From positions 62,001 through 126,000 of the forward strand of contig NZ_KB894080.1 in assembly GCF_000374325.1 (NCBI RefSeq): a stretch of 64,000 nucleotides of DNA, written 5' to 3'. The notes under the pieces are model-generated. The model saw only the letters and a list, made by a program, of their open reading frames with translations, did not search any database and had not been told where the DNA came from. The position numbers and the translations under genes are program-made. Positions 164 to 20,114 of the stretch are shown piece by piece (the stretch's first letter is position 1; every line of letters starts with the position of its first letter). This stretch comes from Allofustis seminis DSM 15817. GTDB lineage: Bacteria; Bacillota; Bacilli; Lactobacillales; Carnobacteriaceae_A.

Positions 164-198
164 AGCTAATATGAAATACGTATGGAGGAGGGAACTGT

Positions 199-864: not shown

Positions 865-867
865 TCG

Positions 868-890
868 TAGCGGGGAAGCCCGCTATTTTT
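868..890 (+). terminator. Rho-independent terminator after the YoaK-like gene
   Basis: A 7-bp stem (tagcggg / cccgcta) with a four-base loop is followed by a T run. It begins four bases after the stop codon. Confidence 0.75.
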
Positions 891-940
891 GTGTCATTTT
901 TTGAATCATTTTGTGCTAGTCAATATAGTGCCAAAATAAA

Positions 941-975
941 AAAAGACTCATCTTTAAAGATGAGTCTTTTTTATT
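941..975 (-). terminator. Terminator after the YtxH gene
   Basis: A perfect 15-bp inverted repeat spans 941-970. It has A-rich and T-rich flanks on both sides, so it can end transcription of the minus-strand YtxH gene and back up the terminator of the plus-strand gene. Confidence 0.8.
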
Positions 976-979
976 TTAT

Positions 980-1456
980 TTATTTTGTTGCTTTTTCGAC
1001 ATCTTTTTTGACATCTTTTGCTTCTTTTTTAACATCTTCAGCAATTTTTCCAGCTTCTTTTTTAGCTGTTTCAGCAGTTTTCATTGCATCTTTTTTGAGT
1101 TCTTCTACTGCTTTTGTTGCTTCATCTAGGCCTTCGTTTACTTTGCCTTTTACTTGTTCTGCAAGTTCATTTGCACTTTTACCCACTTCTTTTGCAGATT
1201 TTTCAAAGGAGTCGCGCAATTCTTTGCTAGAATCCACAAGGGAGACACGAATATCTTCTGCTGCTTCTTTGGTTGCTTTTCCAAGTTCTGTTCCTTTTTC
1301 AGCTGCAAGGGATGCATATTCTTTACCTTGCTCTTTCAATTCATTCATTTTATCCGTAAGTTCTGCGCGTGTTTCTTCACCGCTTTTTGGAGCGAATAAT
1401 ACTCCAAGTACAAATCCTGCAAGTGCGCCTTGTACAAATGCGAACACTTTTTTCAT
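980..1456 (-). CDS. YtxH-domain general stress-like protein
   Basis: This protein of about 158 residues opens with a short hydrophobic helix containing the YtxH hallmark (GxLAGFVLGVLFAPKSGEETR, residues about 11-31). The rest is a long, charged, Lys/Glu/Ala-rich amphipathic helix with repeated AxxVKKEAxxV-like units. YtxH proteins are small membrane-associated stress proteins of unknown mechanism, and the tail resembles LEA-like repeats. The start at 1456 is set by a ggaggcgataaac ribosome binding site; an in-frame TTG at 1471 lies on the Shine-Dalgarno itself and is rejected. A second, shorter YtxH protein is encoded at 37170. Confidence 0.8.
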   Translation of the reverse strand: MKKVFAFVQGALAGFVLGVLFAPKSGEETRAELTDKMNELKEQGKEYASLAAEKGTELGKATKEAAEDIRVSLVDSSKELRDSFEKSAKEVGKSANELAEQVKGKVNEGLDEATKAVEELKKDAMKTAETAKKEAGKIAEDVKKEAKDVKKDVEKATK

Positions 1457-1626
1457 GTTTATCGCCTCCAATTATTTATATATTCATTATAAATAAAATA
1501 AGTGCTAAAGTGTAGGAAAATCTTCTAAAATAGACAATTTCAACGGAAAATTTAAGTTTTTTTAATCTTTATCGCCTATAGTACATGATATCTGTGAAAC
1601 TTTAGGAAATTTTGGAGGAATAGCAA

Positions 1627-2808: not shown

Positions 2809-2856
2809 TTCATTGCCCTCATCTTATAAAAAATATGAAGAAAGAGAGAAAAAGTC

Positions 2857-4101
2857 ATGAGTCAAAACCAAATGCCACCCATCCAAAATCATCCCCGCAT
2901 CTTCATTGTAGGGGCTAAGCGCACGCCTATCGGTTCTTTTTTAGGTCAGCTTGCCCATTGTACGCCAGCACAATTAGGAACAACTGCCGTTAAAGCTGCT
3001 ATTTCTGCAAGCACTCTTCCACAAGAAATGGTCGATGAAGTCATTATCGGCCATGTGCTCAGTGCTGGCGCTGGCCAAGGTGTTGCACGACAAATTGCAT
3101 TGCATGCTGGATGTCGCGAAAACTCTATTGCGAGCAGTGTCAATATGGTCTGCGGTAGTGGTTTGAAAGCTGTAATGAATGGATGGCTGAGCTTACAGAT
3201 GGGAATGAATGATGCAGTCGTTGCTGGAGGAGTTGAAGCAATGAGCCAAGCACCTTTTTTATTGCCTGCAATGCGCAGTGGTAATAAGCTTGGGCACACT
3301 ACTGCTTGTGACAGTATCATTAATGATGGACTGACAGATGCTTTTGAACAAATTCATATGGGCATAACGGCCGAAAAAGTTGCAGCCAAATATCATATCT
3401 CACGCCAAATGCAAGATACTTTTGCGCTAGCAAGTCAGAAAAAAGCCATTCAAGCACAAGATGCTGGATACTTCAATGATGAAATTGTTCCAATCGAAGC
3501 AAAAATTGGACGCAACATTGAATATGTAATGGCAGATGAATATATTAATCGTCAGACATCACAGGAAAAATTAGCCGCTTTACGCCCCGTTTTTCAAAAA
3601 GATGGAACTGTAACAGCAGGAAATGCTTCTGGCATCAATGATGGTGCTAGTGCCACTGTCCTTGTGCATGAGCAGATGCTTGAGCAATTAGCTATCCCTC
3701 CTCTTGTAGAAATTGTAGCCATGTCTCAAGTTGGGGTCGCACCTCAGCTTATGGGAATGGGGCCTGTACCAGCTATCCTCTCCATTTTAGAAAAAACAGG
3801 GCTCACCCTTTCAGACATTGGTACTTTTGAATTGAATGAAGCTTTTGCAGCGCAGAGTGTCGCTGTCATTCAGCAATTAGCACAGAAAGCAGACATGGAA
3901 GAAGCCGATCTTTTAAAAAGAGTCAACCCGTACGGCGGAGCCATTGCACTGGGTCATCCGCTCGGCGCAAGTGGGAACCGCATCTTAGTCACCTTGATTC
4001 ATCGTATGAAACGCGAACATTTAAAATATGGCATCGCCAGTCTATGTGTCGGCGGTGGAATGGGCATCGCAATCTTAGTGCGCAATTGTGAAAATATCTA
4101 A
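2857..4101 (+). CDS. Acetyl-CoA C-acetyltransferase (thiolase)
   Basis: This 414-residue biosynthetic-type thiolase joins two acetyl-CoA to acetoacetyl-CoA, feeding MvaS. The acyl-accepting Cys99 is in NMVCGSGLKA, and the C-terminal catalytic motifs GHPLGASGNR and LCVGGGMG are present. It carries about 12 extra N-terminal residues before the usual IFIVGAKRTPIG start of the fold. The Shine-Dalgarno (agagaga) is weak. In Enterococcus this domain is fused to HMG-CoA reductase as MvaE; here it is free-standing and the reductase is a separate minus-strand gene. Confidence 0.93.
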   Translation: MSQNQMPPIQNHPRIFIVGAKRTPIGSFLGQLAHCTPAQLGTTAVKAAISASTLPQEMVDEVIIGHVLSAGAGQGVARQIALHAGCRENSIASSVNMVCGSGLKAVMNGWLSLQMGMNDAVVAGGVEAMSQAPFLLPAMRSGNKLGHTTACDSIINDGLTDAFEQIHMGITAEKVAAKYHISRQMQDTFALASQKKAIQAQDAGYFNDEIVPIEAKIGRNIEYVMADEYINRQTSQEKLAALRPVFQKDGTVTAGNASGINDGASATVLVHEQMLEQLAIPPLVEIVAMSQVGVAPQLMGMGPVPAILSILEKTGLTLSDIGTFELNEAFAAQSVAVIQQLAQKADMEEADLLKRVNPYGGAIALGHPLGASGNRILVTLIHRMKREHLKYGIASLCVGGGMGIAILVRNCENI

Positions 4102-4140
4102 TGGCTCACACCCTCACTTGCAACATACTTAAAAATAAAT

Positions 4141-4197
4141 AAAATCGGACAATGGTGAATGCCTATCTTTTGATGACATACCACTGTCCGATTTTTT
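4141..4197. terminator. Bidirectional terminator between thiolase and mscL
   Basis: A 14-bp stem (aatcggacaatggt / accactgtccgatt, one G-U pair) encloses a roughly 23-base loop. It is flanked by A-rich sequence on the left and a T run on the right, so it serves both convergent genes. Confidence 0.8.
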
Positions 4198-4210
4198 GTA
4201 AAAAATTATC

Positions 4211-4603
4211 TTATTGAGCTGATGTTTTTTCCTGTTGTAATAAGTCGCGAATTTCGCGTAAGTAATCTTCGCTTGTCGGTGCTGCTGGCTTCTCCTCTGC
4301 TTCTTCATGATGGTGCAAGGTACGCACTTTGTTGACAGCTTTTAAGATAAAGAATAAAACAAGTGAAATTAATAAAAAGTCAACCAATGCTTGCAAGAAG
4401 ATACCATAAGGAATTGCGGTGCCATTTAATGTGATCGCCATATCTGCCACACTTGCATTCCCTGCAATTGCCGCAATCAATGGCATAATAATGCCTTCAA
4501 CTAATCCATTGACAACGGCTGTAAATGCTGTCCCCATTACAACACCAACGGCCAGATCCAATATATTCCCTCGCATAATAAATGCTTTAAATTCTTTAAT
4601 CAT
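4211..4603 (-). CDS. mscL: Large-conductance mechanosensitive channel
   Basis: This protein of about 130 residues forms the pentameric pore that opens under membrane tension to release solutes during hypo-osmotic shock. The signature KEFKAFIMRGNILDLAVGVVMG (N-terminal helix and first transmembrane segment) and a second transmembrane segment (FLQALVDFLLISLVLFFIL) are clear. A charged C-terminal helix follows. Two ATG codons overlap at 4606 and 4603; spacing from aaggag favours 4603. It lies just downstream of mvaA (18 bases) and may be cotranscribed with it. Confidence 0.93.
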   Translation of the reverse strand: MIKEFKAFIMRGNILDLAVGVVMGTAFTAVVNGLVEGIIMPLIAAIAGNASVADMAITLNGTAIPYGIFLQALVDFLLISLVLFFILKAVNKVRTLHHHEEAEEKPAAPTSEDYLREIRDLLQQEKTSAQ

Positions 4604-4621
4604 CATATTCTCCTTTTTATT

Positions 4622-5947
4622 TTACAATGTGTGATGTGGTCTTTGCGCTTGAGATGTTTGACGAACGATATTTAGAATGCGTTTTGCTGCTTCGGTGTCA
4701 AGATGTGCTTCTTTTTTCAACAAGGATACAACAGCTGGCACTTCTTCAGGAGAGGCACCGACACTTAAAGCAAGCGAATTCGCCTGCAAACTCATATGCC
4801 CTTTTTGGATGCCTTCTGTCACAAGTGCTAAAAGCGCACTCAAATTCTGACCTAATCCAAGGGATACAGCTAACTCAGCCAATTGCTTAGCAGTAGGATG
4901 TCCTAATATTTCATAGCAAAGCTGGACAGTTGGATGAGAATTAATGGTTCCGCCAAGCGTGCCTAATGTCAGTGGTAAGGTCAGTTGTCCAACAAGTTGC
5001 CCAGCATCATTAGTCGTCCACACCGAAAGTGCCCGATACTGACCACTGCGACTTGCATAAGCATGAGCTCCAGCTTCGACAGCGCGCGTATCATTTCCAC
5101 TGGCAAGAACAAGTGCTGTTACACCATTCATAATGCCTTTATTATGTGTTACTGCACGATAAGGATCGACTGCTGCAAATTGTCCAGCTTTAACAATTGC
5201 ATCGCGAACCCATTCCCCTGAATATTGACCACGTGCTAAATATTCTGGCGAAATTGTACAAGTTGCGGTAACAAGTGCCTCAGTAGCATAATTGGACAAA
5301 ATACCCATCAATGCTTCAGCTCCAATTAGTTGCTGGACATATATTTTAATGCCTTCCATCATTGTATTCACAATATTAGCGCCCATCGCTTCTAATGTAT
5401 CTACATGTAAGTGCATGACAAGCAGCTCTGGCGTGGCAAAGGTCTTATCAGCTGGCAAAATGCGAACCTTTACTTCTCTTGCACCTCCACCGCGAGAAAC
5501 AATGCTTGGGTGTGATGCATTAGCTAACTGAATAATTTCTTCTGTATGTTGCATCAGCACTTGGGAAGCAGCGGCACTATCTTTCACATCAAAAAATGCT
5601 AACTGCCCCACCACTAAACGCTTAGGAAATGTCGTATGAAATCCGCCACTTTGGCTAATAATTTTGCCTGCATGGCTAGCTGCCGCAATAACAGATGGTT
5701 CCTCAGTGACCATTGGCAGTACATATTCTTGCCCATTAATAACATAATTCAGTGCAACGCCTAATGGTATCTCAAAGTTCGTAAGATAATTTTCGATCAT
5801 ATGATCGGCCACTGACGGCTCAAGATGAATGCTTCGACTCTCAAGATATTCATATGTCTTTTGGGATATAACTTCTGCTTCATATAGTGCATGCAATTTC
5901 TCAGCATGACTTTTTTTATAAAATTGCTGCAAAAATTCTTTTTTCAA
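4622..5947 (-). CDS. mvaA: Hydroxymethylglutaryl-CoA reductase, class II
   Basis: The enzyme reduces HMG-CoA to mevalonate. The 441 residues carry the class II catalytic set: Glu52 in IENYLTNFEIPLG, Lys270 in THNKGIMNG, Asp286 in LASGNDTRAVEAG and a C-terminal His384 in KGHMSLQ. The NIVNTMMEG nucleotide-site region is also present. The start is TTG at 5947, preceded by aggaggggcctt; no ATG is suitably placed. It completes the mevalonate-forming trio with mvaS and the thiolase, but is on the opposite strand and so separately controlled. Confidence 0.94.
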   Translation of the reverse strand: MKKEFLQQFYKKSHAEKLHALYEAEVISQKTYEYLESRSIHLEPSVADHMIENYLTNFEIPLGVALNYVINGQEYVLPMVTEEPSVIAAASHAGKIISQSGGFHTTFPKRLVVGQLAFFDVKDSAAASQVLMQHTEEIIQLANASHPSIVSRGGGAREVKVRILPADKTFATPELLVMHLHVDTLEAMGANIVNTMMEGIKIYVQQLIGAEALMGILSNYATEALVTATCTISPEYLARGQYSGEWVRDAIVKAGQFAAVDPYRAVTHNKGIMNGVTALVLASGNDTRAVEAGAHAYASRSGQYRALSVWTTNDAGQLVGQLTLPLTLGTLGGTINSHPTVQLCYEILGHPTAKQLAELAVSLGLGQNLSALLALVTEGIQKGHMSLQANSLALSVGASPEEVPAVVSLLKKEAHLDTEAAKRILNIVRQTSQAQRPHHTL

Positions 5948-6163
5948 AAGGCCCCTCCTTTTTCATTATTTCCTTTATTATGCTGGAATTTGTGTGATTT
6001 TAAAAGTAACGGGTTTTAAATTTTAAAAAAGTAAGGGCTTTCATGTGAAAAAATAATAACTTTCCAGTATGATAGCAGAGGTTAGATTTCACGAACTAAA
6101 AAGATTTTTGCCTAATAAAAGCGCAAAACTTTTTTAGCCTAGTTGAAATTATTAACCGAGATG

Positions 6164-6192
6164 TTGAGTTTTGCTGTAAAGTTTGTTATTAT
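6164..6192 (+). promoter_or_regulatory. Promoter of the alcohol dehydrogenase gene
   Basis: TTGAGT (6164-6169) and TATTAT (6187-6192) are separated by 17 bases, a good vegetative sigma-factor promoter about 33 bases before the start codon. Confidence 0.65.
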
Positions 6193-6224
6193 TATCACGA
6201 GATTTAAAAAAAGGAGAGGGAAAA

Positions 6225-7247
6225 ATGACCCATAAAATTAAAGCAATTGTGGCAACAGCCGATCACAAAGCGGAAGTTATCGAAAAAGAAATGCGTCCGC
6301 TCGAATATGGTGAAGCACTCCTAGATATGGAATGCTGCGGTGTATGCCACACCGACTTACACGTTAAAAATGCCGACTTCGGTGATGTTACCGGACGTGT
6401 CCTTGGTCATGAAGGAATCGGCATTGTCAAAGAAGTCGGACCTGGTGTTACTTCATTGAAAGTCGGCGACCGCGCAAGTGTCGCATGGTTCTTTGAAGGT
6501 TGTGGCCACTGTGAATATTGTGGTACTGGTCGTGAGACACTTTGCCGCAGTGTTAAAAATGCTGGCTATACAGCAGATGGTGGTATGGCAGAAGAAGTCA
6601 TTGTTACCGCAGACTATGCAGTAAAAGTTCCAGACGGATTAGACCCTGCCGCTGCAAGCTCCATTACATGTGCAGGTGTTACTTGCTACAAAGCGATCAA
6701 AGAAGCACATTTAAATGCTGGACAATGGATTTTAATTTCTGGCATGGGTGGACTTGGAAACTTAGCACTCCAATATGCTAAAAATGTCTTCAACTTAAAA
6801 GTTGTTGCAGTTGATGTTAATGATGGCCAACTTGAATTTGCTAAAGAATATGGTGCCGACATTTGCATTAATCCACTTAAAACAGATGTAGCTGAATTTG
6901 TCCAAAAAGAATTAGGTGGCGTTCATGGTGCTGTCGTAACGGCTGTCGCAAAATCTGCCTTTAACGATGCCGTTGGCGCCGTTCGTGCAGGTGCTCGCGT
7001 TGTTGCAGTTGGACTCCCAAGTGCCGCAATGGATCTATCCATTCCACGCCTTGTACTAGATGGTATCCAAGTTGTTGGTTCTCTCGTTGGAACACGTGAA
7101 GATCTGAAAGAAGCGTTCCAATTCGGTGCTGAAGGAAAAGTTGTACCAAATTGTGAAATGCGCCCAATGGAAGATATTAATGATATTTTTGATGAAATGG
7201 AACGCGGAGAAATTCGTGGTCGCATGGTTATCGATCTTAAAAATTAA
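6225..7247 (+). CDS. adhP: Zinc-dependent alcohol dehydrogenase, AdhP type
   Basis: This 340-residue medium-chain dehydrogenase interconverts primary alcohols and aldehydes with NAD(H). Visible features are the catalytic zinc ligands in [10 protein letters not shown] and LGHEGIG, and the structural zinc cluster [16 protein letters not shown]. The nucleotide-binding [14 protein letters not shown] and a following acidic residue (VVAVDVND) favour NAD. The start at 6225 follows aaaggagagggaaaa; the 14 codons upstream in frame are untranslated leader. It is monocistronic, between its own promoter and a strong terminator. Confidence 0.92.
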
Positions 7248-7268
7248 TCATCTCCTCATAATTTAAAT

Positions 7269-7337
7269 AAAAAAGCTCTGCAACTGAACACTTAGACTCT
7301 CACAAGTGAGTTTGTAAAGTGCCATTGCGAGCTTTTT
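7269..7337. terminator. Bidirectional terminator between adhP and glpK
   Basis: A long stem (aaaaagctc-gcaa / ttgc-gagcttttt, one bulged base) has an extra hairpin at its apex (actctcac / gtgagt). A and T runs on the two sides let it serve both convergent genes. Confidence 0.75.
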
Positions 7338-7369
7338 CTTTTTATATTTGAATGCTAGCTTATATTTTT

Positions 7370-8950
<1,581 letters not shown>

Positions 8951-8995
8951 TCATTTATGTCAATGGATATATTAATAAAGCACACGATTAACAAT

Positions 8996-9026
8996 TAAAA
9001 AACAGACTGTGCTTCCACAATCTGTT
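8996..9026 (-). terminator. Terminator of the glycolipid gene cluster
   Basis: On the minus strand an 11-bp stem (aacagattgtg / cacagtctgtt) with a gaag loop is followed by six T residues. It lies 55 bases after the last gene of the cluster. Confidence 0.8.
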
Positions 9027-9080
9027 ATAATGCCATTTCTTTAAAATAAGAGATGCGCGTTATCCTGCGCATATTGCGCC

Positions 9081-10094
9081 TTATCTTCGTTCTTGAGCAA
9101 TTTTAAGGGCGCGCTGATAGCAGCTGCGCAATTGATGCCCAATTTTTCCGATACTTTTTTCAGAGACTTTTGCATAGCCTGCCTGCGTTAAATCGGGGAG
9201 CTCTTGATTGAGTATGCCAATAATAGTCTGTTCCAAGTCTGCTAGATCCTTGAATTTATATAGATGCTTATTCGCCTCATAATCATCAAACACTGGCAAG
9301 TCGCGCACAATGGTCGGAATACGGCTAGCCAAAGCTTCCAGCAGCACAATGCCTTCTGTCTCTTCATATGTTGGGAAAAGATAAAGATCTGCCACTTGAT
9401 AGGCAACACGAACAATTTCCCGGTCAACATATCCCGCAAAACGCAAATTTTCCAGACGTGTACTTAAAGCTTGACGGGTCTGTTCATCAAGCACTTTTGG
9501 ATCAGTATAGCCAAACCAAATAAATTGCACTTCTGGCAATCGCCGCGCCAACTCGATAAAATCAAATAGCCCTTTACGCTTAATTTGAAGACCGACCGAA
9601 ATAATCAGTGGTCGATTCTCATCGAGGACATAAAAAGCACGAAATTTCTTCATTTCATAATCGGTAGCATGCCAGAAGTTTAGGTCAATCCCGTTAGAAA
9701 TTGACTCAATTGGAGCATGCAAACCATAGGACTGAAGTAAACTTTTTGAATATTCAGTCGGTGTTAAGAGCAAATCTGCCGTTCCATAACATTTCTCCAA
9801 CCATTTGCGAAATAATGGAGCAACCGTATTAGAGTAGCGGAAAGAATCTTTGAAATCTTCAGCCGTTGAATGTGCATGGTAGACAACCGCTTTACCTTGA
9901 CGGCGAGCTTTTTTAGCAAGATAGTAAGAGTTTGGGAATATTGTATTAATATGGACCACATCCCAGTCCTTTGTATCGGTGAGTGTATAAGGGATATGTT
10001 CTTTTTCAAGCGCAGCTTGCTGATGATAGAGTGCACGACCGACACCACTTTGTTTTATTTTTTCTTGAAAATCACTATGTAGGTATACTTTCAT
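9081..10094 (-). CDS. GT4-family glycosyltransferase, probable second-step glycolipid synthase
   Basis: This 337-residue GT-B-fold glycosyltransferase of family 4 has a short N-terminal acceptor domain and the nucleotide-sugar domain signature EETEGIVLLEALASRIPTIV (E-x7-E motif, about residues 240-260). Its place downstream of the diacylglycerol glucosyltransferase-like gene at 10999 matches the LafA-LafB (BgsB-BgsA) pair. Those proteins build the dihexosyl-diacylglycerol anchor of lipoteichoic acid, so the product probably adds the second sugar. It is the last gene of a three-gene run that includes a TVP38-type protein. Family is certain; the exact donor sugar and linkage are inference. Confidence 0.72.
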   Translation of the reverse strand: MKVYLHSDFQEKIKQSGVGRALYHQQAALEKEHIPYTLTDTKDWDVVHINTIFPNSYYLAKKARRQGKAVVYHAHSTAEDFKDSFRYSNTVAPLFRKWLEKCYGTADLLLTPTEYSKSLLQSYGLHAPIESISNGIDLNFWHATDYEMKKFRAFYVLDENRPLIISVGLQIKRKGLFDFIELARRLPEVQFIWFGYTDPKVLDEQTRQALSTRLENLRFAGYVDREIVRVAYQVADLYLFPTYEETEGIVLLEALASRIPTIVRDLPVFDDYEANKHLYKFKDLADLEQTIIGILNQELPDLTQAGYAKVSEKSIGKIGHQLRSCYQRALKIAQERR

Positions 10095-10118
10095 GCCTTT
10101 CCCTCTATTCCATTTGAT

Positions 10119-10916
10119 TTAATGATGAATAAATAATTTTAGCAAGCCGGCGGTTCCATATTGGTAGAGAAACAGCGTTGGAATCTTGCTGAGCGTCAAT
10201 ACGATCATAAATTTCTTAAAGCGAATAGGCGTCAGACCTGCAAAACAGCACAAAAAATCAGCCGGTGTCAGCGGAATAAACATCGCATAAGTAAAAAGCC
10301 GCTCAAAGCCTTGCTCGCTTTCCATCCACGATGCATATTTTTTGTAACTGCGTTCATCCAATACCATCTGCACAAAAGGACGACCATAACGGCGGGCCAG
10401 CATAAAGATAATGACCGAACCTACCATAATTCCCACGAAATTCAAGAAAAAGCCGTACCAAAATCCAAAGACAAGCGTGCCAATTGGAATCGTAACGCCC
10501 GCAGGAATAATTGGAATGACCACTTGCAACAGTTGAATAAAAATGAACACAATAGGAGCACCATAGCCTGCACGATTCAAAAAGGCAGCCATTCGTTCAG
10601 AATCTGTCAGAAAGCCAGTCGCAAATCCTTGATAAATGAACCAGATCGAACCTATCATACCAATAATATTAATTGTCTTAAAAAGACGGGCCTTCCACTG
10701 TTGTTTTTGAGATGTGTCAGGAACTTCCGCTTTTATTTTTTCGCGTTGATAGCGGTGCAAGGTATCAATTGTCTCGCTCGATAACTTTCCCGAATCCATG
10801 TGCGAATTCAGCGGTGATGTTTCGTTAACTTGTTTTTCTGCTGCTTGTGCACTATCTTTTCTTTTAGTTTCTAATGTTTCAAGTCTTTTCGCTTCTTTTT
10901 TATGGAATGTATTCAT
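10119..10916 (-). CDS. TVP38/TMEM64-family membrane protein (SNARE-associated/DedA-like)
   Basis: This 265-residue protein has a charged, Lys/Glu-rich N-terminal cytoplasmic tail of about 85 residues, then five or so membrane segments. The VTT-domain signature is visible: PIIPAGVTIPIGTLVFGFWYG, the re-entrant-loop GS-FMLARRYGR region and FTYAMFIPLTPADFLCCFAGLT. Eukaryotic VTT proteins are lipid scramblases and bacterial DedA proteins recycle lipid carriers, so a role in moving glycolipid or its precursors is plausible but unproven. The start at 10916 follows gggaaggattgct. It is embedded between two glycolipid glycosyltransferases. Confidence 0.78.
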   Translation of the reverse strand: MNTFHKKEAKRLETLETKRKDSAQAAEKQVNETSPLNSHMDSGKLSSETIDTLHRYQREKIKAEVPDTSQKQQWKARLFKTINIIGMIGSIWFIYQGFATGFLTDSERMAAFLNRAGYGAPIVFIFIQLLQVVIPIIPAGVTIPIGTLVFGFWYGFFLNFVGIMVGSVIIFMLARRYGRPFVQMVLDERSYKKYASWMESEQGFERLFTYAMFIPLTPADFLCCFAGLTPIRFKKFMIVLTLSKIPTLFLYQYGTAGLLKLFIHH

Positions 10917-10998
10917 AGCAATCCTTCCCTCTGCTTGGATAAACCAAGAAGACGAATGCGCCAAAGAGTTGAAATAAAGTCTTCCGGTTATTTTTTAT

Positions 10999-12150
10999 TT
11001 AGTCATTATCTATCGCACGTTGATAGACTTCAAGCACTTTCTTAGCAAAAGCTTCAGCAGAATAATGATCAAGTGCTGATTGACGCGCTGCTTGGCCCAT
11101 AGTTGAGCAAGTCATTGGCTGGTGGACAAAACTTTCAAGATATTTTTTGAATTGATCAAAATTTTGATATTGATAGCCATTTTTACCATCTTCTATAACG
11201 CCATCAATAGAATCATCTTGACGACATAATGCAGGTAGACCGCTCGCAAGAGCTTCGATATATGTTAAGCCTTGTGTTTCGCTTGTTGAAGCACTAACAA
11301 AGAGATCTCCCAATTGGTAATAAAGCGAGACTTCTTCGGGACGAACCATTCCAGCAAAGCGTACTTTGTCTGTTAATGCTAGCGTCTCCACCAATTCTTC
11401 AAGCGCTGCCCGATATGGACCATCGCCAACGATTAATAGCTTCAAATGCGCCTCATCCAGTTGCTTCATATAGCGGATAAGCTCATCGATATTTTTCTCT
11501 TTTGCGACACGTGCGAGTGACACCAATACAAAATCATCTGGTTCAATGCCCAATTGTTGACGCACTTGCTGCCTTTTTTCTTGAGGAATTCTTTCAGAGA
11601 ATTGTTTTAAATTCAATCCTGTTGGAATCACTGTAATTGGAATATCAATACCATAACCATGTAGCATTGCACTAACTTTAGGTGTTGGCGCAATAATTTG
11701 TGCCGTTCGTTCCAATAGTTCCCGCGATAGCGTTTCAACAATTTTCTTGCCGAGACGACGACTTGGCGAGAAATAATGCGTATAATCTTCATAAATCGTA
11801 TGATATGTATGCACAATTGGAATATCTAACGCATGCGCCATGGCTTGTGCAATTCGGAACGTACTGAATTCCCCTTGCGTATGAATAATATCGGGATGCC
11901 AGTCCACTAATTTGCGAATATAAGGGGATGTCTTGGCAAAAGATAGACGCGCCCCTGGATATAACTTATTCACACTGAAGGAACGAACAGCGCATACATG
12001 ATGAATCGGATCTTCTGAATCATGTGCCCCTAATGTTAGGACATATACTTCATGACCAGCAGCTTCTAAAGCCTCTTTGAGTGTCAAAGTCGATGTAACG
12101 ACACCATTAATTGCTGGCTTATAAGTTTCCGTTGCAATGAGTACTCTCAT
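10999..12150 (-). CDS. 1,2-diacylglycerol 3-glucosyltransferase-like GT4 enzyme
   Basis: This 383-residue GT4 enzyme has the N-terminal RVLIATETYKPAINGVVTS motif typical of monoglucosyl-diacylglycerol synthases. It also has HTYHTIYEDYTHYFSP and the C-terminal E-x7-E motif in SETQGLTYIEALASGLP. Orthologous proteins (LafA, BgsB, alMGS) transfer glucose from UDP-glucose to diacylglycerol, the first step in the lipoteichoic acid anchor glycolipid. The start at 12150 follows ggagggaagaagagc. It is the first gene of the cluster 12150-9081. Confidence 0.82.
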   Translation of the reverse strand: MRVLIATETYKPAINGVVTSTLTLKEALEAAGHEVYVLTLGAHDSEDPIHHVCAVRSFSVNKLYPGARLSFAKTSPYIRKLVDWHPDIIHTQGEFSTFRIAQAMAHALDIPIVHTYHTIYEDYTHYFSPSRRLGKKIVETLSRELLERTAQIIAPTPKVSAMLHGYGIDIPITVIPTGLNLKQFSERIPQEKRQQVRQQLGIEPDDFVLVSLARVAKEKNIDELIRYMKQLDEAHLKLLIVGDGPYRAALEELVETLALTDKVRFAGMVRPEEVSLYYQLGDLFVSASTSETQGLTYIEALASGLPALCRQDDSIDGVIEDGKNGYQYQNFDQFKKYLESFVHQPMTCSTMGQAARQSALDHYSAEAFAKKVLEVYQRAIDND

Positions 12151-12367
12151 GCTCTTCTTCCCTCCAAACATTTAACATAGGATAGCACAGCTTGCACAAA
12201 ACTTCATCCATCTTAAGTCCTAACAAAAAAATTTCTTCACAATTGTTAAACTATCCCTGCAATTTTCATACTGTACATTCTTTTAATTTTACCTTTTAGA
12301 GCGATGATCATTTCAACTATTATTGAAACAACTATCTACTAAAAAATAACTAACCCCCATTATTCAT

Positions 12368-12892
12368 CTACTGCAAGCTTTCTTTTGGGGAAATATTATG
12401 AATTGAAAATATCTGGTCAAAAGGCAATGCTTGTAGCTTATCCGCTTGTGCTTGGCGGACGTCTAAAAGTTTTTGGTGCAACGCTTTTGGACAATCTTTG
12501 CCAAGTTGCTTGACTTGATGACTTAAATTCATGAATTCTATCGATAATGCGCCTTCTACTAACATTGCTTCTATGCAACAGTAATCGCTAATCAATTGAA
12601 AATAATATTTGCCCCCATTTGGTGCGGCAAGTGCCTTTTTAGTGGCACATTTTTCCTTATCTAAATCGAGAGTCAAATGCTTTTGAAAAATATATTTGAC
12701 TGAATCATTAACACCTTCTGCATTATCTCCGACCCCATTATAAAAGTAGACGGGGCCACTATGAATTGGTGACAACTCACTTAATAGACGATAAGCTAAA
12801 GAGACACCACACACCATCTCCCCATGATGTGCGGACAATAGTTGTTCATAGGTCACCTTTTTTTCTTTTTGATTTTCTATTATTGTAATCAT
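12368..12892 (-). CDS. FmdE-like protein associated with an ABC importer
   Basis: This 174-residue protein is not confidently recognised. Residues 15-40 (YEQLLSAHHGEMVCGVSLAY...) resemble the N-terminal HGH-x-CPG metal-site region of FmdE (formylmethanofuran dehydrogenase subunit E-like) proteins, with His22, His23 and Cys28 as candidate ligands. Further cysteines occur in KCATKK and DYCCIEA. No signal peptide or membrane segment is visible, so it is cytoplasmic. Its ATG shares one base with the stop codon of the substrate-binding protein gene (TAATG), implying translational coupling. It therefore probably acts on, or senses, the imported compound; methanogenesis is not implied. Confidence 0.4.
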   Translation of the reverse strand: MITIIENQKEKKVTYEQLLSAHHGEMVCGVSLAYRLLSELSPIHSGPVYFYNGVGDNAEGVNDSVKYIFQKHLTLDLDKEKCATKKALAAPNGGKYYFQLISDYCCIEAMLVEGALSIEFMNLSHQVKQLGKDCPKALHQKLLDVRQAQADKLQALPFDQIFSIHNISPKESLQ

Positions 12893-13872
12893 TATTTGAC
12901 GAACAACTCCTCTACTTGAATGGCTTCTTTAATCATTCCTGTTGCCAGCATAAAGTCTGCTGTTGCTTGCAACCCTTTGATGTCTTCATCCGAAACATCC
13001 ATGTCAAAATTATATTGTGTGATCATTGCATCATATGCTTTCGCATCAATGCCCAACTCTTTCATCGTCATTTCTTTTGCTTTATCAGCTGAATCGGTCA
13101 TAAATTGACGCATTTTTTCTTGAGCAGCCGTGATAGCTTTAATCACTTGTGGATGTTCATCAATGAATGCTTGACTCGTTGCCACACACATTGTACCTGC
13201 AATTAAACCTTCACCATCTGTTACTAAATGCAGTCCTGCTTCTTTTGCTTTATAACCACTAGCACCTCCTAAAAGTGCTCCATCAATTGAACCCGCTTCC
13301 AACGCTGCTTGCGCTTCTGGGATAGGCATATTCACATAATTGACTTCTTCAATGGTCATCCCTGCTGTTTTTAAATAAGCAATTAACATTTCATGTAAAT
13401 TTGTGCCAGTAGGGCCAGCAATTGTTTTTCCACGTAGATCTTCAGGAGTATTAATTGATTCATCTGTTGTAAATAATGTATAAGCTTGCGGTGCACGTGC
13501 ATATAAGTTAATGATTTTAATGTCGACACCTGCTGCCGCTGCCGCAATGACTGACGTGCCTCCAACACAATGTAATAGCTGTACATCACCTGATGCTAAA
13601 GCCGCTGTCTGATCTGCTCCTGAAGTAATTTCTTCATAATTGATAGCTACTCCAGGAAGTTCTGCTTCAAAGAATGCTTCATTTTTATCGACAATAGATG
13701 GAACATTAAGCGGTGAGGTGACATAAGTGATCGCTAAATGATCAATTCCTAATGCTTTCTCATCTTCAGTTGCTGATTTCTTATCTTTAGCATTGCCACC
13801 ACAAGCAACAAGTCCCACTGCCAACACTACAATCATCAAGGCCATGCCTAGTCGTTTGAATAAATTTTTCAT
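12892..13872 (-). CDS. ABC importer substrate-binding lipoprotein (SsuA/NMT1-like)
   Basis: This 326-residue periplasmic-binding-protein-like lipoprotein has a lipoprotein signal peptide ending in LVAC (lipidated Cys24). The mature protein has the NMT1/SsuA pattern: ITYVTSPLNVPSIVDKNEAFFE near the start, LASGDVQLLHCVGG and PEDLRGKTIAGPTGT. Family members bind alkanesulfonates, taurine, nitrate, pyrimidine thiamine precursors or other small ligands; the sequence alone does not name the ligand. The start at 13872 follows taggaggataaaa. It is third in a permease-ATPase-SBP-FmdE-like operon. Confidence 0.85.
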   Translation of the reverse strand: MKNLFKRLGMALMIVVLAVGLVACGGNAKDKKSATEDEKALGIDHLAITYVTSPLNVPSIVDKNEAFFEAELPGVAINYEEITSGADQTAALASGDVQLLHCVGGTSVIAAAAAGVDIKIINLYARAPQAYTLFTTDESINTPEDLRGKTIAGPTGTNLHEMLIAYLKTAGMTIEEVNYVNMPIPEAQAALEAGSIDGALLGGASGYKAKEAGLHLVTDGEGLIAGTMCVATSQAFIDEHPQVIKAITAAQEKMRQFMTDSADKAKEMTMKELGIDAKAYDAMITQYNFDMDVSDEDIKGLQATADFMLATGMIKEAIQVEELFVK

Positions 13873-13882
13873 TTTTATCCTC

Positions 13883-14647
13883 CTATTTTTTATTTTTTTC
13901 TTTATTTTGTTGATCGATTTGATTGAGGTCTTCAATAATTTCTTTTTTTAGTGCAATCATTGCTTCACTTAGAAGATCGCGCTGGGGACTATTTACGATT
14001 AAGTCATTATATAATTGTCCCTCATTCATAATAAGAATACGATCCGCTAAGCGTAATGCCTCATCAATAGAGTGCGTCACAAATAACATGCCAACTTTTT
14101 CTTCATGATAAAGTGCTAATAAATCATCTTGAATATGCCGCCGCGTAAAATAATCGAGCGCTGCAAATGGTTCATCCATCAGGAGATAATCTGCCCCATA
14201 AAAAAGCGTTCGAATTAAGGCTGTGCGGCTTTTCATACCACCTGAAAGTTGATGAGGATAAGCATGTTTAAATGGTGTCAGTCCGACCATTTCTAACAAA
14301 TGATCGGCTTTAGGATCAGCAACTGAGCCATGTGCCTTTGAGAAGATGACATTTTGATAGATGGTCAACCATTCCATCAGGCGCGGCTCTTGAAAATTCA
14401 GACCGAACTTCATTCCAGGTGCAACTATTTCGCCACTGCTCACCGCTTCTAGACCCATAATCAGCCGCAATAATGTTGTTTTGCCACAACCAGACGGCCC
14501 TAGAATAACTGTAATAGCTTCTGGATCTAGCGTAAGATTGATCGCTTTGACCGCAAAAAAAGTAGCCTCTTTCACCCTCTCAGAGGTCGGCGACTGTCTT
14601 AAGTTATATTTTTTGCTAACATTTTTTAGTACAATCTTAGTCACCAA
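13883..14647 (-). CDS. ABC importer ATPase (SsuB-like)
   Basis: This ATPase of about 254 residues has Walker A GPSGCGKTT, Q-loop NFQEPRLMEW, signature LSGGMKSRTALIR, Walker B YLLMDEPFAALD and the switch His in FVTHSIDEA. The NFQEPRLMEWLT stretch is typical of the nitrate/sulfonate/taurine importer subfamily. The start is TTG at 14647 or GTG at 14644; both overlap the end of the permease gene (stop at 14637) and follow aaggacgagcag. The signature reads LSGGM-KSRTA, with KS in place of the usual xQR, a mild deviation. Confidence 0.87.
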   Translation of the reverse strand: MVTKIVLKNVSKKYNLRQSPTSERVKEATFFAVKAINLTLDPEAITVILGPSGCGKTTLLRLIMGLEAVSSGEIVAPGMKFGLNFQEPRLMEWLTIYQNVIFSKAHGSVADPKADHLLEMVGLTPFKHAYPHQLSGGMKSRTALIRTLFYGADYLLMDEPFAALDYFTRRHIQDDLLALYHEEKVGMLFVTHSIDEALRLADRILIMNEGQLYNDLIVNSPQRDLLSEAMIALKKEIIEDLNQIDQQNKEKNKK

Positions 14648-15389
14648 CTGCTCGTCCTTTCAATATTGTTTTGATGACATACTTAAATGCTGCATCAAAT
14701 AAAAGTCCAAGTATCCCAATACAGATAATGCCCATAATGACAACATCGGTATGAGACATCGACTTTGCAATATTAATCATATAGCCTAGACCACTCGAAG
14801 CTGCCACTAATTCCGCACCAATAATTGCGCGATAACTATATCCCATGCCTATCCGCATACCCACAAGAATATCGGGCAGCGATGCTGGAATAATAATAAA
14901 TTTAAAAATTTCATAAGGCGACATTTTAAAGCTACGTCCGACCTCGATTAGTTGTTTATCAACACCTTTTAACCCTTTTTCAAAATTCATATACATAGCA
15001 AAGAACGTTGCAAGAAAGATAACCATTATCTTTGGCAACTCGCCAATGCCTGCCCAAATAATTAACAAAGGAATCAAACTAAGTGGAGGCACTGCGCGCA
15101 TAAATTGGTTAAATCCATCACACCACTGTGCCCATGCTGGTCGTATAAATAAAAGAATCGCCAGCCCCATCGCACAAATAAAAGCAAGCAGATAACCGAC
15201 AAATACTCGGCTAAGGCTAGCTAATATATGACGTGGGAGCTGGCCACTTTTTGTAGCATCTATAAAACTTTGGCAAACCATTTGTGGTGTGGGCAATAAA
15301 AAGGTGCTATAGCGACCGCTCGCACACACAATTTGCCATAACATTATTATTACTGCTGTTACAACAAGTGTTTTTTGCCATTTCTTCAT
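14637..15389 (-). CDS. ABC importer permease (SsuC-like)
   Basis: This 250-residue permease of the BPD_transp_1 fold has about six transmembrane segments. The EAA-type cytoplasmic coupling loop reads EVGRSFKMSPYEIFKFIIIPASLPDILVGMRIG. It is the first gene of the importer operon; the ribosome binding site ggaaggg lies 10 bases before the ATG. The next gene overlaps its 3' end. I see no T-box or recognisable riboswitch in the short leader, which might otherwise have revealed the substrate. Confidence 0.87.
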   Translation of the reverse strand: MKKWQKTLVVTAVIIMLWQIVCASGRYSTFLLPTPQMVCQSFIDATKSGQLPRHILASLSRVFVGYLLAFICAMGLAILLFIRPAWAQWCDGFNQFMRAVPPLSLIPLLIIWAGIGELPKIMVIFLATFFAMYMNFEKGLKGVDKQLIEVGRSFKMSPYEIFKFIIIPASLPDILVGMRIGMGYSYRAIIGAELVAASSGLGYMINIAKSMSHTDVVIMGIICIGILGLLFDAAFKYVIKTILKGRAVGD

Positions 15390-15470
15390 GCTTGCTGCCC
15401 TTCCTTTTTATCAATCTCTCTTCTTCACCACTACCACATGTGCTTAACGCTTATATATAGGTTCACTTAC

Positions 15471-16013
15471 TCAATTTTCTTTTTTGCGTGCATTGGTTAC
15501 TAAATCCACATAAAAATGGCGCAACTTTACATGGTCATGTGCTTTAATGGGTGACGTGCGCCGGCGATTTCGCAGATGATACTGCACCATTTCATCGCGG
15601 ATCTCTTCTTTGGTCTGCATCACCTCTAGATACAAATCTTGCGCCGACTTCCGCGTTGCACCCCGCTGAAAAATCAACCACTGCTCTGCTAAGTCACTCG
15701 TAGCAACTTCAACACGTGTCGTATATAAATTCTCTTTCCCCACTACACGCTCAATGTAGCTATCTGCTGTCTCACCTTCACGCGTATAGATGACAGTTAA
15801 TACACCTTGCGTATCAGAATGGGCAGCTCCTGGAACAAATTGCGCATCAAAAACAACACGAACATCAATCTGTCGATATTTTGCATATTCCGACAGCATC
15901 TCAAGCAATAAATCGCGCGCATCCGCTAATTTCTCACGATTTTTTAGCTGGATTAATTGCGGCCAAGCGCCGATCATATTATAGCCATCGACATATAATA
16001 TATTTTTTCGCAT
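15471..16013 (-). CDS. rae1: Rae1/YacP-type ribosome-dependent endoribonuclease
   Basis: This 180-residue NYN/PIN-like nuclease begins ILYVDGYNMIGAWPQL. The acidic residues expected for metal binding occur in VDGYN, VVFDAQ and TREGETADSYIE. The B. subtilis orthologue Rae1 enters the ribosomal A site and cleaves certain mRNAs. In many Firmicutes it lies in the cysS-mrnC-rlmB operon; here it sits alone between the importer operon and an acetamidase-family gene. Confidence 0.85.
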   Translation of the reverse strand: MRKNILYVDGYNMIGAWPQLIQLKNREKLADARDLLLEMLSEYAKYRQIDVRVVFDAQFVPGAAHSDTQGVLTVIYTREGETADSYIERVVGKENLYTTRVEVATSDLAEQWLIFQRGATRKSAQDLYLEVMQTKEEIRDEMVQYHLRNRRRTSPIKAHDHVKLRHFYVDLVTNARKKEN

Positions 16014-16085
16014 ATGTTCCTTCGCCTCCCTTTTTTATTTCATCAAGGTTATACATTCTTATTAACTGTTCAATGCATTCACAAT

Positions 16086-16967
16086 CTATGGGCGCTTTAG
16101 AACACTTTTAGGAAGCTCTACACGCATCGTTTTATTTGGATTGACAGCTTGGCTAACTTTCAAATCCCCAGCAAGTGAGAGTAAGATGGTCGCTTCGCTC
16201 AAGTTCATATGGGTACGTTTCATCACAAATTGCGTCATCTGATCAACTGCAACGGTCGCTGCTTCATCCAATGTAGGAGCTGAACCTATTGCAACATATA
16301 GCTCATCTGTCTCAATAAATGGCAATGGTAAGTCACACTGTTTCAAGACTTCAACCGTTACTTGAATCTCTCCTGCTACTTCAAGTCCACTGCCACCAAC
16401 TTCTCCGTCCCCCATCGCGCCATGCATATCACCCATCGAAAGCAAAGCACCATCCACTTCAACAGGTAAGTAAAGTGTTGCACCTTCACGTACTAAAATA
16501 GTGTCCATATTGCCACCATGTGTATCTGGTGTGCCTGTATTGACCCCTTCTTTTCCAGGTGCTGTTCCAATAACTCCGATCATAACCCGCTTAGGTAATG
16601 TGAGTCCTAAAAATTCGATACTGTCTTCATGGACTTGACCAATAATTGTCTGTTCTTTTGTAATCTTTTCGCCAAGCGGTCCCATACCATGTGCAGTCAT
16701 CGCCACCCCTGTATTTGTGATTGTAATTTTATCAATTGTCACTTTCAATGTATCGCCAGAAACGGCTCCCTCCACAAATAAAGGACCTGTCGCTGGATTC
16801 ACTTTAGAAAAATCAATCGTCTTAATCGTATCCGCTTCTGATTTTACCGTATTGGAAAAGCAATCAAGTGTTTCAAAAATGACCGTTTCTTTTGAGGCCA
16901 CTTTGGCAACAGGTGGCTGATTGCGATTCATTTCAAATATAACCGTTTCCTTACTAATTCTCTTCAT
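16086..16967 (-). CDS. Acetamidase/formamidase-family protein
   Basis: This 293-residue member of the FmdA/AmdA family consists of metal-dependent short-chain amide hydrolases. Family motifs are ETLDCFSN, NPATGPLFVEGA, DTHGGNMD and SMGDMHGAMGDGEVGGSGLE, which together hold the metal site. The preferred amide is unknown. An N-terminal oddity is that SKETVIFE occurs twice, at residues 5-12 and 25-32, with similar codons. The gene has its own ggaga ribosome binding site, lies 72 bases upstream of rae1 and might be cotranscribed with it. A link to the importer at 12.9-15.4 kb is possible but not shown. Confidence 0.85.
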   Translation of the reverse strand: MKRISKETVIFEMNRNQPPVAKVASKETVIFETLDCFSNTVKSEADTIKTIDFSKVNPATGPLFVEGAVSGDTLKVTIDKITITNTGVAMTAHGMGPLGEKITKEQTIIGQVHEDSIEFLGLTLPKRVMIGVIGTAPGKEGVNTGTPDTHGGNMDTILVREGATLYLPVEVDGALLSMGDMHGAMGDGEVGGSGLEVAGEIQVTVEVLKQCDLPLPFIETDELYVAIGSAPTLDEAATVAVDQMTQFVMKRTHMNLSEATILLSLAGDLKVSQAVNPNKTMRVELPKSVLKRP

Positions 16968-17061
16968 TTAATCCATCTCCTTTATTTTGGTATATTATTT
17001 TAAATTAATCTCATGAGGATATACTTTCGGCTACCTCTACCTAAAGTGGTAGCACTTGGCT

Positions 17062-18075
17062 TTAGCCAAAATATTGAATGCCCATCGCATCTTTAGCTTC
17101 TGCTAACGTTTGTGCAGCGACTTTTTCAGCTCTTTCACTGCCACGTTTCAAAAGTGCCAAGATATGTTCGCGGTTGCCAGCAAGTTCCTGACGGCGCTGA
17201 CGAATTGGGCGCAAATGATCTTGCAATATTTCATTTAAGTAACGTTTTAAGACGACATCACCCAAGCCACCACGCTCATAGTGTGCTTTTAACTGAGCAA
17301 CTTTTTCTTTGTCTGGATCGAACAAGTCTAAATAAGTAAATACTACATTACCCTCAACTTGGCCTGGATCTTCCACATGGATATGATTAGGGTCAGTATA
17401 CATCTTCATCACTTTGCGCTGAATCTCTTCTTCACTATCTGATAAATAAATACCATTTCCAAGCGATTTACTCATTTTGCCATTGCCATCAATGCCAACA
17501 ATTCGACCTTGTCCTTTTGGCGGAAGAATAATGTCTGGTTCAACAAAAGTTTCTGTCTGATAAATGCGATTAAAATCGCGCGCAATTTCACGCGCTTGTT
17601 CAAGCATCGGTTTCTGGTCGTCCCCTACTGGAACATGTGTCGCTTTAAAAGCTAGAATATCAGCAGCTTGGCTGACAGGATAGACAAAGAAACCTGCAGG
17701 AATACTTGCGCCAAATTTTTTGTCTTTGATTTCACTTTTAACGGTCGGGTTACGTTCCAAACGTGCCATAGTCACCAAGTTCAAGAAATAGACAGTCAAC
17801 TCTGGCAGTTGTGGAATTTGCGACTGCAAGAAAATGGTTGTCCGTTCAGGATCCAATCCAACAGCAAGATAATCAAGTGCCACTTCATAGATGCTTTCTT
17901 GAATTTTCTTTGGATTATCTGCATTATCTGTCAATGCTTGTTGGTCCGCAATCATAATAAATATTTCATTGGTGCTATCTTCTTGAAGCTTGACACGTGT
18001 TTTTAAGGACCCTAGATAATGACCGAGGTGCAATTTTCCAGTTGGTCGGTCGCCCGTTAAAATAATTTTACTCAT
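17062..18075 (-). CDS. trpS: Tryptophanyl-tRNA synthetase
   Basis: This 337-residue class Ic synthetase charges tRNA-Trp. The HIGH-type motif is TGKLHLGHYLGSL and the KMSKS motif is GKMSKSLGN. PVGDDQKPMLEQARE is also typical. The start at 18075 follows ctggagttgaaaag. No T-box leader is visible upstream, so charging-dependent control is not indicated here. Confidence 0.95.
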   Translation of the reverse strand: MSKIILTGDRPTGKLHLGHYLGSLKTRVKLQEDSTNEIFIMIADQQALTDNADNPKKIQESIYEVALDYLAVGLDPERTTIFLQSQIPQLPELTVYFLNLVTMARLERNPTVKSEIKDKKFGASIPAGFFVYPVSQAADILAFKATHVPVGDDQKPMLEQAREIARDFNRIYQTETFVEPDIILPPKGQGRIVGIDGNGKMSKSLGNGIYLSDSEEEIQRKVMKMYTDPNHIHVEDPGQVEGNVVFTYLDLFDPDKEKVAQLKAHYERGGLGDVVLKRYLNEILQDHLRPIRQRRQELAGNREHILALLKRGSERAEKVAAQTLAEAKDAMGIQYFG

Positions 18076-18380
18076 CTTTTCAACTCCAGTACTCAAAAAT
18101 TATCGCACTTATTATACCATATCCGTCGCTTATTTTAGAAAGTGGACCCTTTTATTCCAGTACATCCCAAAAAATGTTGTGTACTTTTTTAAATTTTCTC
18201 TTGAAAGTCATGAATAAATAGAAAAAGGGTTTGGATTAGTCTTTCATCTGAAGTATAATGAATAAGTAAAAGTTATTATAAGATCGTGTAAATTTTTTTA
18301 CGATCGCAAATGAACATACTTATGTTTGTGAAAAGAATTTCATAATGATTGGATTATGAAGTAGAATGGGAGGAATTAGC
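18076..18380. other. Intergenic region between trpS and the Na/Pi cotransporter gene
   Basis: This 305-base gap separates divergent genes. It contains a clear plus-strand promoter (18231-18259) and AT-rich sequence. I see no T-box, riboswitch or small gene in it. Confidence 0.5.
18231..18259 (+). promoter_or_regulatory. Promoter of the Na/Pi cotransporter gene
   Basis: TTGGAT (18231-18236) and a perfect TATAAT (18254-18259) are separated by 17 bases. A leader of about 115 bases follows before the start codon. Confidence 0.7.
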
Positions 18381-20114
18381 TTGGATATGCAAGCGATGCT
18401 CTTTCAATTTGTGGGAGGGCTTGGAATTTTCCTGTTTGGAATTTCTTTGATGGGGGACGGCTTGAAGCTGACGGCTGGCGATAGTTTGCGCGAGTTATTA
18501 CAGCGATTCACTTCGACCCCTTTTAAAGCAGTCTTAACAGGAGTGGTCGTGACCAGCCTGATTCAAAGCAGTTCAGGAACAACTGTTTTAGCGGTCGGTT
18601 TGGTGAGTAGTGGCTTTATGACATTACAGCAAGCCATTGGCGTGGTCATGGGAGCCAATATCGGAACGACCGTTACTTCGTTTATTATTGGGATTAATCT
18701 TGGACAATATGCACTGCCAATTATCGGTGCTGGCAGTATCTTAATGTTCTTCTTCAAAAATCCGCAAATTAAACATATTGGTCAAGTGATCATTGGTTTT
18801 GGGATGCTCTTTTATGGATTGGAACTGATGGGAACAGGGATGGAACCTTTGCAAGAAGTTCAAGCATTCCACGATTTAATGGCACGTCTATCCACGAACC
18901 CAGTCTTAGGGGTCGGAGTTGGAACGGTCCTGACAATGGTTATGCAATCATCAAGTGCAACAATTGGGATCTTACAACAACTTTATGCCCAAGGAAGTAT
19001 CACATTGGGAGGATTGCTACCTGTCTTATTTGGAAATAATATTGGAACAACGATTACCGCTCTTTTGGCAACAGTTGGTGCAAATGTTGCAGCGCGTCAA
19101 ACAGCTGGCGCACATGTCTTTTTCAACGTGATGGGAACAATCTTCTCGATTATTTTGTTGCATCCTTTCACATTGATAATTACTTATGCCACCGATTCAT
19201 TAGGCTTAGCACCTGCTATGCAAATTGCATTTGCACATGGGTTATTCAACATTTTAAATGTTATTATTTTATTCTGGTTCATTCCACAAATTGCACGTTT
19301 GATGGAAAAATTAATGCCCGACAAGCAAGTCGAAGAAGAAGCACCTACTCATCTGGATGTTCAAGTATTGCGTAATGCGGGACCTACATTGGCATTGCAC
19401 CAAGCACATAAAGCGCTAATTCAACTTGCACTTATCGTTCAAGAACAATTCGATCTAGCAGCACTTTATTATCATGAAAAAGATGAAAAATATGTTAAAC
19501 AAATTCATATTTTAGAAAATGAAATTAATCAAAAAGATATTCATTTAACCGATTATTTAGGGCTTATCTCTGAATATGAACTAGGTCAGTCCGATACTGA
19601 AGTTCTATCAGCAATGATTAATACGAGTAAATATTTGGAACGTATCGGGGACCATACCACGCAAATTACAGACAACTTAACAGAAGCCGTCCATATCGAA
19701 AAACATCGTATCGAAGAAGGAAAAGCTAATACTGACGGCCGTAAGATGCAGTGGGGCGACTCAAAATTAGAGCGCATGTTCTTACTAGCACAAGAAAACG
19801 TTGCTGGAATCGTACATCTGATAGATTTAGGCGATCGTTCGGTCGTATCTGATATTTTAGAGCGTGAAGCAGAAATTGATGCATTGCAAGAAAAATTGCG
19901 CACACGCTACATTAATCTTATTCGTAGCGGAAAAAGCTGCCCAACCGATAATATTCTCTTTATCGACATTGTGGCCAGCTTGGAACGTATCGGAGATCAT
20001 ACGCGCAAACTTGTTACCAATCATTTGAATTTCTTATATCATTACAGTCCGCAAGATATTATCGAAGAGTCCGAGCTAAGTGTTACACCTAAAGTAGATC
20101 AGCCAGCCAATTAA
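18381..20114 (+). CDS. Na/Pi cotransporter family protein with PhoU-like tail
   Basis: This 577-residue protein has two Na/Pi-cotransporter repeats carrying the hallmark QSSS motifs (IQSSSGTTVLAVG about residue 60 and MQSSSATIGILQQL about residue 195). About eight membrane segments are followed by a cytoplasmic PhoU-like helical domain with paired ERIGDHT motifs (YLERIGDHTTQI and LERIGDHTRKL). It probably couples sodium to phosphate movement; some relatives act in phosphate efflux. The TTG start at 18381 is chosen because gggagga ends six bases upstream; the ATG at 18366 overlaps that Shine-Dalgarno. Confidence 0.88.
   Translation: MDMQAMLFQFVGGLGIFLFGISLMGDGLKLTAGDSLRELLQRFTSTPFKAVLTGVVVTSLIQSSSGTTVLAVGLVSSGFMTLQQAIGVVMGANIGTTVTSFIIGINLGQYALPIIGAGSILMFFFKNPQIKHIGQVIIGFGMLFYGLELMGTGMEPLQEVQAFHDLMARLSTNPVLGVGVGTVLTMVMQSSSATIGILQQLYAQGSITLGGLLPVLFGNNIGTTITALLATVGANVAARQTAGAHVFFNVMGTIFSIILLHPFTLIITYATDSLGLAPAMQIAFAHGLFNILNVIILFWFIPQIARLMEKLMPDKQVEEEAPTHLDVQVLRNAGPTLALHQAHKALIQLALIVQEQFDLAALYYHEKDEKYVKQIHILENEINQKDIHLTDYLGLISEYELGQSDTEVLSAMINTSKYLERIGDHTTQITDNLTEAVHIEKHRIEEGKANTDGRKMQWGDSKLERMFLLAQENVAGIVHLIDLGDRSVVSDILEREAEIDALQEKLRTRYINLIRSGKSCPTDNILFIDIVASLERIGDHTRKLVTNHLNFLYHYSPQDIIEESELSVTPKVDQPAN

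Follow-up and report, generated by a model that had tools for sequence, protein, structure and literature searches.

The operon

The stretch of DNA analyzed here (the window) comprises 64,000 nucleotides of the Allofustis seminis DSM 15817 genome and carries on its minus strand (12368-15389) a four-gene operon for an ABC permease, an ATPase, a substrate-binding lipoprotein (SBP), and a protein of 174 residues. The first gene (14637..15389, minus strand) encodes a 250-residue permease that is SsuC/TauC/SaoP-like and matches Pfam BPD_transp_1 with 86.7 bits. The second (13883..14647, minus strand), starting at a TTG or else at a GTG at 14644, encodes a 254-residue ATPase (ABC_tran, 90.8 bits). 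The SBP gene (12892..13872, minus strand) starts at an ATG at 13872 with an AGGAGG site upstream, and its product of 326 residues matches NMT1 with 72.6 bits and has the lipobox LVAC24. The final gene (12368..12892, minus strand) begins within the SBP stop, the overlap reading TAATG. The original prediction had the permease, ATPase, and lipoprotein genes overlapping or abutting, and this is indeed the case: the first two overlap by 11 nt, and a gap of 10 nt separates the ATPase gene from that of the SBP. The 174-residue protein has no apparent signal peptide and is therefore probably cytoplasmic. Scans for promoters and terminators gave no more matches than were obtained in shuffled sequences.

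Two genes upstream of the operon lies an acetamidase/formamidase gene (PF03069, FmdA_AmdA; window 16086-16967, minus strand). The "Fmd" of this family and that of FmdE, discussed below, are a name in common; the two are otherwise unrelated.

The importer and its ligand pocket

The operon shares with the SsuABC and TauABC sulfonate importers all three component families and the fold of the SBP. The predicted structure of the SBP (pLDDT 83.5) matches SsuA with a Z of 34.4 and TauA with a Z of 31.6, after which there is a step to a Z of 27. Its sequence scores 143.5 bits with the SsuA_fam model TIGR01728, just under the cut-off of 163.5; the SBPs of two relatives described below (L015 and L017) lie above it. 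These matches would fit an ordinary SsuABC/TauABC importer of sulfonates, the gene for the 174-residue protein being an unrelated passenger. However, SsuA and TauA bind the sulfonate through a Gln side chain, two Gly main-chain NH groups, and a Ser or Thr, and TauA needs Glu106. When these positions were mapped in seven SBP sequences through HMMER alignments, rather than in a solved pocket, only the two main-chain Gly donors were found to be kept (G85 and G104). SsuA Gln36/TauA Gln30 corresponds to Val51, a Val in all seven; Ser141/Thr132 has become Asn158 in the window SBP, the family having Asn, Val, or Ile here; and TauA Glu106 is replaced by Tyr131, or by Phe in the relatives. Since other residues stand in place of the sulfonate-holding Gln, Ser/Thr, and Glu, the alignments argue for a ligand other than sulfonate. 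In addition, no sulfonate monooxygenase gene is adjacent to the operon, which has the FmdE-like gene as its fourth member. The earlier description of the importer as "SsuABC-like" thus stands for sequence and fold and fails for the conserved sulfonate-binding side chains, and we regard sulfonate import with a passenger gene as improbable.

Among curated NCBIfam models, those of the SAO (Sec-assisted organometallic) ABC transporter, SaoA/SaoP/SaoX, match the ATPase and permease best or nearly so. However, these scores are about half of the cut-offs (SaoA, 153 bits versus 360; SaoP, 152 versus 295, with SsuC at 149 versus 347 for the same permease), and no selenoprotein gene was recognised in the operon. 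The SAO models point, weakly, to a metal link.

A third possibility is that the importer is ThiXYZ-like and takes up a pyrimidine or a thiamine precursor. The SBP is of the NMT1/THI5 family, and one related operon from Cellulosilyticum (L016) is preceded by thiM-thiE-thiD-like genes, which themselves lie behind a TPP riboswitch. However, this is the only one of seven operons with thi genes beside it, the other Cellulosilyticum operon (L015) being without them, and a search of window bases 1-20000 (L014) gave no TPP riboswitch. The SBP model is also nearer to SsuA (Z 34) than to 3ix1 (Z 27), a pyrimidine-binding protein. This reading is consequently quite improbable. An Rfam search of eleven loci gave only the TPP riboswitch of L016 and a tRNA, so that no riboswitch names the ligand.

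The 174-residue protein as a divergent FmdE relative

The original prediction also held that the last protein is FmdE-like. The Pfam PF02663 match that would have supported this was not obtained, and searches of Pfam, NCBIfam, and PDB sequences with the protein were empty; among four subfamily members scanned with PF02663, the best E-value was 0.13. A whole-genome search with the protein gave three weak relatives in distant Bacillota, and a contig search with a profile built from these three gave eleven loci. Single-protein matches at E 0.01-0.1 (L005-L010) came from genomes that did not reappear among the matches of a profile search. No relatives were present on IMG/VR viral contigs or PLSDB plasmids.

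An alignment of twelve subfamily members (A5) was the basis of an AlphaFold model with a mean pLDDT of 91. In a comparison by Foldseek and VIA-align, its top three PDB matches are the three solved FmdE structures, 2glz (Z 11.5; 136 aligned residues, 3.5 A), 2gvi (Z 10.1), and 3d00 (Z 8.3), and the next match falls to a Z of 4.7. In hhalign, A5 matches 32 canonical FmdE proteins with 96% probability over 144 columns, or 95.6% when the window row is removed, whereas 30 column-shuffled controls reached at most 2.5% and two unrelated families at most 0.3%. Furthermore, searches with the subfamily profile recover genuine FmdE proteins with E-values from 2e-6 to 3e-4. Given the confident model, the matches to FmdE structures, and the profile-profile match, the 174-residue protein, as judged from model and alignment, belongs to the FmdE superfamily as a divergent branch and is not PF02663 proper. 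Its predicted fold is that of FmdE over about 135 residues (Z 8-11.5), and the first His and the Asp of the dimer interface (D63) are kept. In contrast, sequence identity is 11-14%, under Pfam detection, and the C-terminal zinc finger is missing. To our knowledge, FmdE proteins have solved structures and no established function.

The metal ligands of 2glz are His15, His17, Cys19, and Cys55, and a solved member, 3d00, lacks two of these and has no zinc in this domain (PMC2954224). In the alignments, His15 corresponds to H22, which is invariant in the subfamily and is the sole FmdE ligand with a counterpart. Most members have Arg or Lys in place of His17. In the window protein, this position is Gly24, Cys19 becomes Met26, and Cys55 falls at about Gly60; thus, the FHGHxC motif and second Cys of the FmdE site are absent from it. 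The family motif is mostly YHGRxxxGG, with YHGR changed to HHGE in the window protein. The His-His-x4-Cys reported previously is correct as to its letters (H22, H23, and C28), and yet it does not form the FmdE metal site: His17, Cys19, and Cys55 have no counterparts, and Cys28, which is Gly in the relatives and Ala in L021, is private to the window protein. Because the FmdE ligands are mostly gone, direct metal binding by this protein is doubtful.

Recurrent linkage to importers

The neighborhoods of 14 subfamily genes on 13 contigs were surveyed for SBP-FmdE pairs, revealing that linkage to importers recurs in both Bacillota and Deltaproteobacteria. Seven of the 14 come immediately after a gene for an SBP of one family: in the window, in Cellulosilyticum (L015, L016), in a Peptococcaceae member (L017), in a deltaproteobacterium (L018), in a Syntrophomonadaceae member (L019), and in Syntrophomonas (copy 1 of L022). 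The complete order of an Fe-hydrogenase-like gene, permease, ATPase, SBP, and FmdE-like gene is found in L015-L018; L022 has the last four in this order without the head gene. The permeases of these five loci are 43-46% identical to that of the window, and the ATPases 41-48%. In L017, the FmdE-like gene overlaps the SBP gene by 1 nt, as it overlaps a neighboring gene in L020, L021, L024, and L025. The translational coupling of the last gene at the SBP stop that was originally predicted is therefore borne out both by the TAATG overlap and by its recurrence in L017. The gene order and the coupling are beyond chance, because L017 has both the order and the 1-nt overlap, and L015, L016, L018, and L022 share the four-gene order. 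The presence of the FmdE-like gene behind the SBP in five lineages besides that of the window also means that it is not a passenger, as the sulfonate reading would have it.

Other subfamily members are found near importers of other types. In L021 (Firmicutes UBA994), the genes after the FmdE-like gene encode an SBP with distant similarity to SsuA, two permease-like proteins, and an ATPase. Copy 2 of L022 and the L047 gene stand in gene runs with Peripla_BP_2/FecCD-type importers. In Pelosinus (L020, L024, L025), the gene lies about 1.7 kb from a TonB receptor, whose best matches include heme, B12, and siderophore models, and an SbmA-like transporter is downstream. No importer was seen on the short contig of L023.

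Several details of these loci deserve a record. Copy 2 of L022 (L022:3544-8489) is 5 kb from copy 1 and stands behind the genes of a Peripla_BP_2/BtuCD-type importer and of two unannotated proteins of 208-210 residues for which Pfam searches were empty. The FmdE-like gene of L016 (L016:7956-8417) has an in-frame stop after 153 codons, beyond which the homology carries on, indicating either a pseudogene or an assembly error in the MAG. Between the TonB receptor and the Fe-hydrogenase-like gene of a Pelosinus locus (L020:6353-6859) lies a gene for a hydrophobic protein of 168 residues that resembles an ECF S-component and has no Pfam/NCBIfam match. Finally, very long cell-surface proteins contain an FmdE-like domain (L049:4828-9237, 1469 residues; L051:499-5946, 1815 residues), that of L049 having SLH repeats and a CbiX/CbiK-type chelatase domain ahead of it; possibly, these surface proteins scavenge extracellular metal or tetrapyrrole.

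The head gene of the L015-L018 operons encodes a short [FeFe]-hydrogenase-like protein of 206-221 residues. PF02906 matches the L017 and L018 proteins, to which those of L015 and L016 are homologous. In contrast to Fe_hyd_lg_C proteins (PF02906), the head protein has only about 210 residues, and yet it keeps four Cys as in the [4Fe-4S] site of the H-cluster: C61, C110, C192, and C196 (L015 numbering) are invariant in all four sequences, and we take them to correspond to this part of the cluster. Longer forms with ferredoxin motifs stand directly before the FmdE-like gene in L020, L021, L024, and L025.

For FmdE genes as a whole, it has been reported that most PF02663 genes adjoin genes for metal-ion transporters (PMC2954224). 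In a crude motif scan, an ABC ATPase was found within 1.5 kb of only 1 of 32 canonical FmdE genes (L048); consequently, tight coupling to an importer is not general for canonical FmdE at this distance, a result that qualifies the published statement. The exception is an operon (L048:5344-10230) for an ATPase, an NMT1-type SBP, a permease, a TrmO_N-domain protein, a canonical FmdE, and a ModD-like QRPTase. Here, FmdE and an NMT1 importer have come together a second time, independently.

Methanofuran and molybdenum

Such neighbors raise the classical context of FmdE, in which the protein would be an accessory of molybdenum or tungsten uptake. The FmdE fold, the genes for a TupA-like tungstate SBP and molbindin-like proteins near some members (L018, L022, L023), and the canonical FmdE of L048 with its neighboring NMT1 importer and ModD-like enzyme all speak for it. 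However, the importer does not belong to the ModA, WtpA, or TupA type, the TupA gene of L018 lies about 5 kb off on the opposite strand, and molybdopterin oxidoreductase domains are missing from the window genome; we consider such an accessory role very improbable. In single-family searches, upon which these absences rest, the genome also lacked PF02663 (FmdE proper) and the Fe-hydrogenase domain PF02906, in agreement with the earlier statement that methanofuran metabolism is absent. Because all three are missing, roles in methanofuran or molybdenum metabolism are unlikely here. With neither a molybdopterin oxidoreductase domain nor PF02663, linkage to formylmethanofuran dehydrogenase was not found in this genome, and only 13 of 208 FmdE genes have this linkage (PMC2954224).

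Distribution and history

No relative of the 174-residue protein was found among 98 other genomes of the order, and the best SBP match among 79 of its other genomes was at most 29% identical. In contrast, the window SBP is 47-50% identical to that of Cellulosilyticum. Because of this absence from about 100 genomes of the order and the far closer Cellulosilyticum SBP, the operon was probably acquired horizontally; loss from the sampled relatives is the alternative to transfer. Since the GC content of the operon (0.391) is close to that of the window (0.387), there is no sign that the transfer was recent.

The FmdE-like proteins of the window and Cellulosilyticum are only 27-29% identical, whereas in other members the FmdE-like protein and the SBP have diverged to a similar degree (over all pairs, their identities have a correlation of 0.77). 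On these identities, the FmdE-like protein appears to have diverged faster than the SBP in the window lineage, perhaps after loss of the Fe-S partner. Such a pattern could also mean that the gene is a decaying remnant and that the importer works alone, as might the missing partner and the change of YHGR to HHGE. However, the reading frame is intact, the coupled start is kept, and the protein is modeled at a pLDDT of 91; we thus assign decay a low probability.

A model for the operon

Taken together, these results have led to a model in which a horizontally acquired importer of the SsuA/TauA/NMT1 type is paired with a cytoplasmic FmdE-superfamily protein and transports a non-sulfonate ligand, probably linked to a metal or cofactor. 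We favor it tentatively, at somewhat less than an even chance. The lipoprotein would bind a small ligand, anionic or organic but not a sulfonate, and the permease and ATPase would import it; metal complexes, metallophores, and cofactor precursors are the likeliest candidates. Translational coupling would keep synthesis of the FmdE-like protein in line with that of the SBP, and in the cytosol this protein would receive, hold, or release the imported ligand. In the anaerobic relatives, it would act alongside a short Fe-S protein that has an H-cluster-like domain, a partner that the window lineage lacks. Metal- or cofactor-related import and processing was raised in the original prediction, which is borne out in its FmdE-like protein and importer linkage and not in its reading of a metal site, three FmdE ligands having no counterpart.

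The metal link is inferred from neighbors and relatives, namely the TonB and FecCD-type systems, the fusion of an FmdE-like domain with a CbiX-type chelatase, and published FmdE neighborhoods. However, it should be noted that the model is weakened because NMT1-type SBPs bind diverse ligands that are not metals (thiamine precursors, nitrate, bicarbonate, PQQ), because the SAO scores are well under their cut-offs, and because so few canonical FmdE genes (1 of 32) are near an ABC ATPase. A bolder version, possible but on the whole unlikely, is that the operon represents an undescribed system for uptake and processing of a metal complex or organometallic cofactor, in which an NMT1-type importer would deliver to a cytosolic FmdE-fold receptor without the metal site of FmdE, joined in anaerobes by a miniature H-cluster-like Fe-S protein. 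No description of the importer/FmdE-like module was found in the literature.

The pairing of this importer with an FmdE-like protein in unrelated anaerobes suggests an uncharacterised, probably metal-linked uptake rather than ordinary sulfonate import. With a branch that lacks the metal site and is tied to one importer family, in a host whose small genome has no methanofuran or molybdenum enzymes, the operon would provide a simple system for understanding what the FmdE fold does.
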